From Flavobacteriaceae bacterium (GTDB lineage: Bacteria > Bacteroidota > Bacteroidia > Flavobacteriales > Flavobacteriaceae), in the NCBI GenBank assembly GCA_003564185.1, contig PXFS01000102.1, positions 1-43,612 on the forward strand: DNA of 43,612 nt. Reading direction: 5' to 3'. Of this stretch, positions 27,560 through 29,896 are shown one piece after another. Below the pieces are notes generated by a model. That model saw only the letters and a list, made by a program, of their open reading frames with translations, searched no databases and was not told the origin of the DNA. Numbering within the stretch: position 1 is the first letter of the stretch; each line of letters starts with the position of its first letter. A program made the translations under genes and the position numbers.

Positions 27560-27961
27560 TTAATTTCCTTTATTATTGTTGAGGCGATATTTCACAAATT
27601 CAATCTTTGTTTTACCGTGAGGTTTAGGTTTACCATTTTCATCTAAACCTACCATTACAATTTTACCAATTTTAATGATTGTTTTTCTTGTCATTTTATT
27701 TCTTACTTCGCAAGTAAGTGTAATGGATGATTTACCAAATTTTACAACATCCATTCCTATTTCAACAATATCACCTTGAACGGCAGAGCTCACAAATTCT
27801 ATTTCACTTATGTATTTGGTCACCATTCGGTGATTTTCTGTTTGGATAGTAGAATATAAGGCCGCTTCTTCATCAATCCATTCTAATAACCGGCCTCCAA
27901 AAAGAGAAGAATTTGGATTTAAGTCGTTTGGTTTAATCCATTTTCTTGTATGAAATCTCAT
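27560..27961 (-). CDS. Acyl-CoA thioesterase, hotdog fold
   Basis: The 133-aa protein matches the YciA/acyl-CoA hydrolase type of hotdog thioesterase, with NPNSSLFGGRLLEWIDEEAAL containing the catalytic region (one residue over is omitted here), VTKYISEIEFV, and GDIVEIGMDVVKFGKSS. It cleaves acyl-CoA to free acid and CoA. The gene starts 2 nt after the original stop codon of the decayed NUDIX gene, so it was probably the last gene of the SRPBCC-SDR-photolyase-NUDIX operon. A palindromic insertion now lies just upstream and may reduce transcription from that operon. Confidence 0.88.
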   Translation of the reverse strand: MRFHTRKWIKPNDLNPNSSLFGGRLLEWIDEEAALYSTIQTENHRMVTKYISEIEFVSSAVQGDIVEIGMDVVKFGKSSITLTCEVRNKMTRKTIIKIGKIVMVGLDENGKPKPHGKTKIEFVKYRLNNNKGN

Positions 27962-27963
27962 AG

Positions 27964-28566
27964 TTATAAATTTAAATGCTCTATTGCGTCTTTAATTAAC
28001 TTGAAATGATCATACCAATTTAACCATCAAATGGCGCAATTTAGCTCATTCATTTTTCCATATATTACCTTGTTCACAATTTCCGTAGCCCAGCTATGCA
28101 AATTATTCACAGCGTTATATATGAAAAAAGCAATTTCGCTCTATTAACGACATTTAATAGTTAAATTGGTATCAAAAGCGAGTTGAGGAAGTTTTTCAAT
28201 GCAAAACCAATCAACCTCCTTTGCATCATCATTAGGTTGAATTTCAAATTCACCTGAAATCAATTTACCAAATGTAAAAGTAATAATTCTTTTTCTAGGA
28301 TCTCTTTTTAGAGCATCATAATAACTTATAAAATCAGCTTCCGATAAGAATAGTGAGAGACCAGTTTCTTCCATTAATTCTCTACTTGCTGCTTCGTGGA
28401 CTAATTCACCTTGATTTACAAAGCCTTCAGGCAACGCTCAATAATTTTTAAAAGGTTTGTTTTTTCTTTGAATAAGAAGCACTTCAATAATGTTATTATT
28501 CTTTCGAAAAACAATAGCGTCTGAAGTTAAACTGAATTCGACTAATATTTTTGTTTTTGTACTTAT
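27964..28566 (-). pseudogene. Decayed NUDIX hydrolase gene
   Basis: Read on the minus strand, the frame from 28566 begins ISTKTKILVEF and runs to a TGA at 28438-28440. That stop sits where the family has Trp, before ALPEGF. It continues with a perfect NUDIX box (GFVNQGE, then REL MEETGL with the standard spacing) to LAFD, where a 158-bp palindromic element is inserted. Beyond the element the same frame resumes as HFKLIKDAIEHLNL and a stop at 27964. Removing 162 bp restores a 146-aa protein. No ATG, GTG or TTG exists at the expected start; the codon there is ATA. A shorter open frame (28144-28434) remains but lacks the N-terminus. The intact gene would have hydrolysed a nucleoside diphosphate derivative. 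Confidence 0.85.
28013..28170. mobile_element. MITE-like palindromic element inserted in the NUDIX gene
   Basis: The element is 158 bp. Its ends are inverted repeats of about 24 bp (starting ACCAATTTAAC on each strand) with three mismatches. It is flanked by a 4-bp direct repeat ATCA at 28009-28012 and 28171-28174. Weaker symmetry continues inward almost to the centre near 28091 (TAGC/GCTA), so the whole piece can fold into one long hairpin. It has no coding capacity. This fits a miniature inverted-repeat transposable element mobilised by a transposase elsewhere. The precise family is not identified. Confidence 0.82.
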
Positions 28567-28591: not shown

Positions 28592-29896
28592 TTATTGAAG
28601 TGCTGATTTGTAGGTATCTAAACAACGTTGACGTGCCATTTTATGTTCTACCATGGGTTCAGGATAATCGGATGTATTTAACTCAGGTATCCATTTTTTG
28701 ATGTATTGTTTATCTTTGTCAAACTTATCGGTTTGAGAGTAAGGGTTAAATACTCTAAAATAAGGAGCTGCATCTACCCCACTTCCAGCAACCCATTGCC
28801 AACCTCCTAAATTAGATGACATTTCGTAATCTAAAAGCTTTTCGGCAAAGTAGGCTTCTCCCCAGCGCCAATCAATAAGTAAATGTTTGCATAAGAAACT
28901 ACCTACTATCATTCTTACCCTATTGTGCATCCAACCTGTTTCATTAAGTTGGCGCATTCCTGCGTCTACTATTGGATAACCTGTTTGACCTGTTTTCCAT
29001 TTTTCAAATTCTTCTTCATTATTTCTCCATTCAATCAAATCATATTTTGGTTTAAATGAACGACTTATTGTTTCTGGGTAATGGTATAAAATAGCCTTAT
29101 AAAATTCTCTCCAAATAAGTTCATTCCAAAAAACCTCATTATCAGCTTGTATTGCCTTTTGAAGTATTTTTCGATAGCCAACAGTACCAAAGCGTAGATG
29201 TGGACTCAGACGTGAAGTACCCTCAATGGCTGGTAAATTACGAGTATCTTCATAATTTTCAATAAAGTCGTTATCAATTTTGTAGGGAGGAACTTCAATT
29301 TTAGATTTTTCAAATCCCATGTCTGATAAAGATAAATTAGGTAATCTAGAATTTTTGTAAAGCTGATCTAAATGCTCCTCAGAAGGGAAGGAACTTATTG
29401 TATGATTTTCAAATTCTTTTTTCCATTGCTTCATGTAAGGAGTATAAACCAAATACGTTCCACCATCTTTTTTTTGGACTTCATTTGGTTCAAAAAAGAC
29501 TTGATCTTTATGCGTGACAAAACCAATACCTTTTTCAGCAAGAAGAGCTTCAATTTTAGCATCTCTTTCTTTTGCATAAGGTTCATAATCTCTATTGGTA
29601 TGAACTTCTGCTATTGAAAATTCAGTAGTGAGTTGCTTAAAAACATCTTCAGGATAACCGTAATAAGTTGCTATTGACGCACCATGATTATCCTGAATAA
29701 ATTTTCTCATTTGTTGTAATTCATCATATATAAAGCTTACCCGGGCATCGTCTTTTGGTAGTTTATCGAGAATGTTTCGATCAAAAATAAATACAGGTAA
29801 TACTGGATAATCAGAAGATAAAGCTTTGTATAAACCTACATTGTCTTCCCATCGAAGATCTCTTCTAAACCAAAAAACAGCAACTTTTTCTTTCAT
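28592..29896 (-). CDS. phr: Deoxyribodipyrimidine photolyase (class I CPD type)
   Basis: The 434-aa protein has the N-terminal photolyase domain (VFWFRRDLRWEDN) and a C-terminal FAD domain with all the usual repair residues. These are NELIWREFY with the substrate Glu and Trp, GWMHNRVRM with the electron-transfer Trp, GGWQWVAGSGVD, and FRVFNPYSQTDKFD. It should repair cyclobutane pyrimidine dimers with blue light. It follows the SDR gene after 36 nt, and before decay it was followed by the NUDIX gene 25 nt downstream. It is much closer to classical photolyase than the protein at 18553-20004. Confidence 0.94.
   Translation of the reverse strand: MKEKVAVFWFRRDLRWEDNVGLYKALSSDYPVLPVFIFDRNILDKLPKDDARVSFIYDELQQMRKFIQDNHGASIATYYGYPEDVFKQLTTEFSIAEVHTNRDYEPYAKERDAKIEALLAEKGIGFVTHKDQVFFEPNEVQKKDGGTYLVYTPYMKQWKKEFENHTISSFPSEEHLDQLYKNSRLPNLSLSDMGFEKSKIEVPPYKIDNDFIENYEDTRNLPAIEGTSRLSPHLRFGTVGYRKILQKAIQADNEVFWNELIWREFYKAILYHYPETISRSFKPKYDLIEWRNNEEEFEKWKTGQTGYPIVDAGMRQLNETGWMHNRVRMIVGSFLCKHLLIDWRWGEAYFAEKLLDYEMSSNLGGWQWVAGSGVDAAPYFRVFNPYSQTDKFDKDKQYIKKWIPELNTSDYPEPMVEHKMARQRCLDTYKSALQ

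Follow-up and report, generated by a model that had tools for sequence, protein, structure and literature searches.

RUP, a short multi-copy MITE of Streptococcus pneumoniae, is believed to depend for its movement on an IS630 transposase, the two having their ends in common, and in the passages available from a 2007 review it is the sole bacterial repeat named with such an IS link (PMC2229807). The same source describes ERIC and the Correia (NEMIS) repeats, small elements with a long stem-loop and 5'-TA-3' termini that measure 127 bp in enterobacteria and 107 or 155 bp in Neisseria (PMC2229807). Bacteroidota MITEs have also been described, namely MITECca01 of Cardinium, linked to IS982 (PMC9769881), and BrickBuilt of Porphyromonas, with IS5-like ends (PMC4596501). 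Regarding target duplication, Tc1/mariner elements classically duplicate TA, and a TAA duplication has been reported for the pogo-group Fot elements of eukaryotes (PMC7386202).

The DNA analysed here is contig PXFS01000102.1 of a Flavobacteriaceae bacterium (assembly GCA_003564185.1), 43,612 nucleotides in its entirety and referred to as the window. It comes from a member of the genus Psychroflexus and contains a non-autonomous hairpin-shaped mobile element (MITE) in the 3' end of a NUDIX gene. The element is of the RUP/IS630-Spn1 kind; the kind is known, and the family and its duplication variant are new. In an open literature collection, searched through titles and abstract beginnings, no account of this MITE family or of a TNA duplication by a bacterial IS630 element was found.

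The element in the window and its insertion site

Table 1. Features of the insertion locus (positions within the window)
Feature	Position	Strand	Remark
4HBT thioesterase	27560..27961	-	downstream of the insertion; synteny
Displaced NUDIX 3' end (D-HFKLIKDAIEHLNL-stop)	27964..28011	-	stop 2 bp before thioesterase start
Target site duplication TCA, left copy	28010..28012	+	flank comparison over genus copies
MITE	28013..28171	.	159-bp imperfect palindrome, ends TACCAATTTAAC...GTTAAATTGGTA (TACC...GGTA)
Left terminal inverted repeat	28013..28036	+	family pattern TACCAAWTTA-N7-AATGNCG
NUDIX reading-frame remnant (PF00293)	28144..28434	-	last 8 codons and stop (TNLTIKCR*) MITE-derived
Right terminal inverted repeat	28148..28171	-	21/24 positions as in left repeat
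Target site duplication TCA, right copy	28172..28174	+	flank comparison over genus copies
In-frame TGA, Trp in relatives (as in NHWALPGGFV)	28438..28440	-	second, independent NUDIX defect
DNA photolyase	28592..29896	-	upstream; completes the syntenic trio

The inverted termini of about 24 bp proposed in the initial annotation are borne out by comparing the outer 24 bp, as read from the sequence, with the reverse complement of the opposite end (Table 1), and the weaker symmetry proposed for the whole element is seen in the 72% match of the whole MITE to its own reverse complement. The element folds as one long hairpin, with -38.9 kcal/mol (z -7.3) for RNA of the plus strand, -61.1 kcal/mol (z -9.6) for RNA of the minus strand and -22.2 kcal/mol (z -5.1) for DNA, and in each case none of 200 shuffles folded as well. 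The strongest-folding strand, the minus strand, corresponds to the sense RNA of the NUDIX/thioesterase region. The 159 bp contain no ORF that reaches 60 aa, and a search of Rfam gave no match up to E 1. A role in stopping transcription before the thioesterase gene, raised earlier as a possibility, is left without support, as no terminator-like site combining a G+C-rich stem with a T run was detected between 27900 and 28600. Any effect of the MITE on thioesterase expression is conjecture.

Removal of 162 bp from the window restores the LAFD frame, as had been predicted: one frame runs through ...QLAFDHFKLIKDAIEHLNL to the stop, giving the reconstructed reading LAFDHFKLIKDAIEHLNL. Empty sites were sought in relatives and found in all 15 NUDIX loci counted from Psychroflexus (L133-L147), where the frame passes through LAFDH (LAFD|H) without the element. 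The element is therefore not a conserved part of the NUDIX genes of relatives; such conservation would have spoken against insertion. Outside this count stand a locus of genome G025 (L148), which has a broken frame but reads FAFDH, and four distant paralogues (L149-L152). In one of these loci, L133, photolyase, NUDIX and thioesterase genes follow in the window's order, with thioesterase 93% and photolyase 85% identical; its NUDIX gene terminates in LAFDHQDLINDAMKHLNL*, and the ATG of the thioesterase gene follows after 2 bp, like the window without the MITE. In the window itself the NUDIX frame ends 8 codons past the insertion. The MITE need not have killed this gene, because the in-frame TGA also breaks the frame; barring an assembly error at that base, the NUDIX gene of the window was or became a pseudogene whether or not the MITE had inserted. 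A GG to EG change adjoins this TGA and represents either part of a second NUDIX defect or an assembly error.

Copies of the element and the length of its target duplication

The proposed search of the genome and its relatives recovered the MITE at five places in the window's own genome (contig C164, which is the window, and C158, C117, C136 and C147, with the C158 and C117 copies at contig ends), an assembly that is 90% complete in 173 contigs. The four other copies are 90-98% identical to that of the window. MITE matches occur in 15 of 27 Psychroflexus genomes, with 26 matches in P. maritimus G009, so that the absence of further copies in related genomes, named in the initial annotation as an argument against a mobile element, does not apply. 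Family-wide, at least 16 of 299 genomes have a match, a lower bound because two candidates per genome were scored. The earlier proposal of transposition into a gene is thus supported by the number of copies, by the target duplications and by the empty sites of relatives. Many single-ended MITE fragments are present in P. maritimus G009, G020 and G015 (L070-L089). Searches of phage DNA and plasmid DNA gave no match to the element, and viral contigs gave one, which is single-ended.

Members of the family can be flagged in annotation by the end pattern TNATACCAAWTTA-N7-AATGNCG. In exact form, this pattern occurs in 14/397 genomes of the family and in 13/237 genera, with a reversed-pattern control of 0 in every row. 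Among the matches listed for named genomes (at least 113 stretches), most belong to Flavobacteriaceae, Saprospiraceae, other Bacteroidota and Chlorobiota, and a few to MAGs with other labels. The latter, labelled Vampirovibrio, Desulfomonile, Phycisphaerales, Verrucomicrobia and Sulfuricurvum (L229, L231, L240, L244, L263, L300, L302, L312), may reflect contamination, chance or transfer.

The initial annotation had delimited an element of 158 bp with a direct repeat ATCA. The repeat is indeed present at 28009-28012 and 28171-28174, but these limits are one base off, the true size being 159 bp and the duplication 3 bp, TCA. This assignment follows from the flanks of 38 Psychroflexus copies, a set that excludes copies truncated or cut by contig edges (including C158 and C117 of the own genome): the 3-bp flanks are equal in 26/38, compared with 33% (461/1406) for mismatched left/right pairs, while the fourth base is equal in 8/38, which is chance level. 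TNA stands on both sides in 29 of these copies, and its N is equal in 26 of the 29. Of the 12 copies without equal flanks, 6 have less than 80% identity with the copy in the window, and in the other 6 a single one of the three bases differs. A wider, uncurated set of 118 elements (140-220 bp, recognisable ends, any locus examined), which includes a few chance pairs, has equal 3-bp flanks in 86, of the form TAA in 52, TTA in 31 and TCA in 3.

A candidate engine and the conservation of the hairpin

The suggested search for a transposase gene with matching ends led to an IS in Polaribacter filamentus, in a Flavobacteriales MAG and in G025, which we take to be P. torquis. MITE-type ends lie 1122 bp apart in three P. 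filamentus loci (L239, L257 and L265, the last two sharing one site) and 1129 bp apart in the MAG (L237); a further P. filamentus copy (L310) is interrupted by other DNA. G025 contains nine complete copies of 1122 bp (one of 1134), with equal 3-bp flanks in 8/9. Over all lineages tabled, equal 3-bp TNA flanks are found in 12/13 copies, the exception (L320) abutting a MITE; a diverged G025 copy of 1086 bp with unequal flanks (L327) and a partial one (L328) were left out of this table. The search for end pairs covered L202-L282 and L283-L315, and looser pairs at IS length in L211, L217, L223, L233, L242, L272, L303, L308, L311 and L313 were left out of the IS set. Another looser pair, in L218, was rejected by eye because a host TPR-type gene lies between its ends. 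At contig edges of Nonlabens, the end of ORF2 is coded next to MITE-type ends.

The IS encodes an HTH protein and a DDE_3 domain in two ORFs of different frames, offset by +1 at a stretch that they share, TTTTTAAAAACTMCC. The split of the transposase at this stretch in three lineages (L257 1253-2374, L237 243-1371, L316 875-1996) suggests programmed frameshifting. The L257 and L237 proteins score 64.6 and 82.9 bits against PF13358 (cut-off 28.6). Against NF033545 (cut-off 100), ORF2 of L237 scores 116.6 bits and that of L257 95.6, with each ORF1 at about 55, the values below this whole-protein cut-off being due to the split ORFs. All 674 plasmid relatives of the transposase have less than 60% identity, and most of the 30 listed are annotated as IS630; the PDB gives weak sequence matches, namely to structures of Mos1 and of Sleeping Beauty (E 0.008-0.095). 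In the three lineages examined, 31 residues separate the second catalytic D from the E. The partner thus has an IS630-type transposase, but it is called IS630-like rather than a canonical member because it duplicates 3-bp TNA instead of TA.

The distribution of the IS differs from that of the MITE. In a search of the 27 Psychroflexus genomes with ORF2, 11 matches (71-84% identity) came from G025 and two weak ones from G021, so that strong IS matches occur in one genome of the genus compared with MITE matches in 15; in ORF2, the nine complete copies of G025 share 83-84% identity with L257. The same search detected no IS in the genome to which the window belongs, which is 90% complete. Around the single-ended MITE matches of G009, G020 and G015, no IS-length element with a second end (up to 3 mismatches) was detected. 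With 2 mismatches allowed in the end pattern, no pair at IS length was found in G000 (the window's genome), G009 or G020, where the reversed-pattern control gave 6 hits against 9 matches, 2 against 30 and 2 against 15, respectively. When three MITEs were compared with three IS copies by BLAST, matches with E <0.01 were confined to the terminal 24-31 bp, the one exception being 25 bp of AT-rich sequence within the IS of L257. From these shared ends and the common TNA duplications, the IS of 1122-1134 bp is likely to be the engine of the MITE.

That 3 bp are duplicated is proved directly by insertions of the IS into the MITE. A MITE end containing the G025 IS reads GGTCTAA-IS-TAATTTGGTA (L316, L325, L326), and an uninterrupted MITE end (L106) reads GGTCTAATTTGGTA. 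A canonical IS630 in G025, serving as an internal control, duplicates TA and has equal 3-bp flanks outside TA in 0/16 cases. Three observations speak for a duplication of TNA and not TA: the NUDIX empty site, the nested IS and this control. A switch away from TA has a parallel in the TAA duplication of Fot elements, which are fungal.

The three G025 copies occupy an identical site within the MITE end in different surroundings (L316 875-1996, L325 1491-2612, L326 1473-2606), pointing either to repeated targeting or to a nested composite that moves as a unit. In the same genome, the canonical IS630 (L113 2002-3305) and an IS5-like element (L107 466-1920) are each inserted inside a MITE. Both had been considered as engines. 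IS5-like elements, the first candidate, were dropped because they have their own ends inside the MITE in L107/L108, and the canonical IS630 was dropped because, although MITE ends flank it in L113, its copies stop at their own termini.

The length of the MITE is about 160 bp across genera, being 159 or 160 bp in 71/118 distinct elements. Longer variants of ~184-212 bp also occur (L097, L106, L191), and in the 212-bp L106 each arm is extended by additional sequence that pairs (GCACAGG / CCTGTGC). Folding and covariation were analysed in 26 of 34 cluster representatives (150-170 bp), after 4 doubtful members and 4 with a deviating centre had been removed by hand. With all 26 as input, RNAalifold reproduces the outer stem as well as the centre and misses the middle arms, probably due to poor alignment there, so each sequence was folded alone. 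At least 51 pairs across the middle are then formed in 25/26 representatives, L161 forming 31; the fold energy of L161 is weak (z -2.7) and that of L168 is not notable (z -0.8).

In the consensus structure, 12/30 pairs have both partners changed in one or more sequences, although the number of such pairs is 13 when the structure is slid by +1. Cells with both-side changes number 57 compared with 23.3 in shuffles, 93.1% of cells are paired compared with 85.2%, and the covariation score is 0.327 compared with 0.191 (0.088-0.117 when slid by 1-3 columns), none of these three values being reached by any of 500 shuffles, which ignore relatedness and are set against a structure derived from the same alignment. 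Beyond the ends, an arm pairs at a mean of -18.7 kcal/mol with its own partner and at -9.4 kcal/mol with the partners of others, and in 17 cases its own partner ranks first among the 26. This covariation could result either from selection for the fold or from templated repair of quasi-palindromes. None of the three IS sequences examined contains the conserved MITE centre CCRTAGC..GCTATGC.

Mechanism, alternatives and known systems

The most probable interpretation, with a probability of about 88%, is that an IS630-like transposase, acting in trans, moves the MITE by recognising the TACCAAWTTA-N7-AATGNCG ends and cutting with a 3-base TNA stagger. The transposase would bind these ends on the MITE as on its own IS, and staggered cutting of the target at TNA would leave TNA duplicated. 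The window copy was presumably moved by the transposase of the IS found or by that of a close relative now lost from, or unsampled in, the window's genome. At the NUDIX locus, the insertion exchanged the last 14 NUDIX residues for 8 encoded by the MITE, and placed a hairpin of -61 kcal/mol in the sense RNA between NUDIX and thioesterase genes formerly 2 bp apart.

A Tourist/IS5-like MITE, owing its TWA-type 3-bp duplication to a transposase of the IS5/PIF-Harbinger type, appears very unlikely. TAA/TTA target duplications are typical of PIF/Harbinger and match those seen here, and IS5-like proteins (DDE_Tnp_1, DUF772, DDE_Tnp_4) occur at a contig end of the window's own genome and in G025 beside or inside MITEs. 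However, the IS5-like unit in L107/L108 stops at its own boundaries inside a MITE, which identifies it as an inserted passenger rather than the holder of the MITE ends, and gene-carrying elements with MITE ends carry the IS630-like DDE_3 (tested in L257 and L237, and by homology in the G025 copies). Less likely still is a canonical IS630 MITE that duplicates TA, with the TNA flanks reflecting target preference only. The MITE ends do begin with TA, the classical duplication of Tc1/mariner-type elements (PMC7386202), but a TA duplication would leave extra bases at the empty site, and these are absent from the NUDIX relatives and from uninterrupted MITE ends; the equality of N in 26/29 TNA-flanked copies, set against 0/16 for the canonical IS630 of G025, also argues against it.

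The least probable alternative is a functional hairpin, either an RNA regulator or a terminator, recruited at this locus with mobility being secondary. The strong sense-strand fold and the co-varying arms across genera would suit such a role, whereas the lack of an Rfam match up to E 1 and of a terminator-like site, the absence of the element at this site in 15/15 relatives and the broken flanking gene all speak against it. As a tentative extension of the IS630-like mechanism, for which the odds are below even, a bacterial lineage of IS630-Tc1-mariner may have switched from a 2-bp TA to a 3-bp TNA cut (31 residues between D and E, split transposase). Its MITE would then be a long-lived selfish hairpin of ~160 bp in Bacteroidota and Chlorobiota, whose arms and asymmetric centre CCRTAGC..GCTATGC, lacking in the engine, would be under selection as a fold needed for mobility or survival.

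The significance of the system is that a MITE is tied to a concrete candidate engine, the two having the same ends and the same unusual target duplication. Because the engine breaks the TA rule of IS630-Tc1-mariner in bacteria, the basis of 2- versus 3-base cutting becomes testable with two related elements in one genome (G025), and, given that the length stays constant and the arms co-vary across many genera, a role of the fold in spread can be tested as well. Among known systems, MITECca01 and BrickBuilt have other parent IS families and other ends, and the accounts cited describe them from one Cardinium strain and from P. gingivalis/P. gulae (PMC9769881, PMC4596501). ERIC and Correia, compared by description only, have other hosts, and the present family adds a 3-bp TNA duplication and a candidate engine. 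Fot elements, of the pogo group of IS630-Tc1-mariner, likewise duplicate TAA and not TA within the superfamily (PMC7386202), but they are eukaryotic with a DD29-56D triad, whereas the IS described here is bacterial, with a DDE triad and 31 residues between the second D and the E. RUP with IS630-Spn1 offers the best precedent for the pair of MITE and engine; RUP measures 107 bp and inserts at TA, whereas the present element measures 159-160 bp, duplicates TNA, has other ends, resides in Bacteroidota and has a partner with split ORFs.
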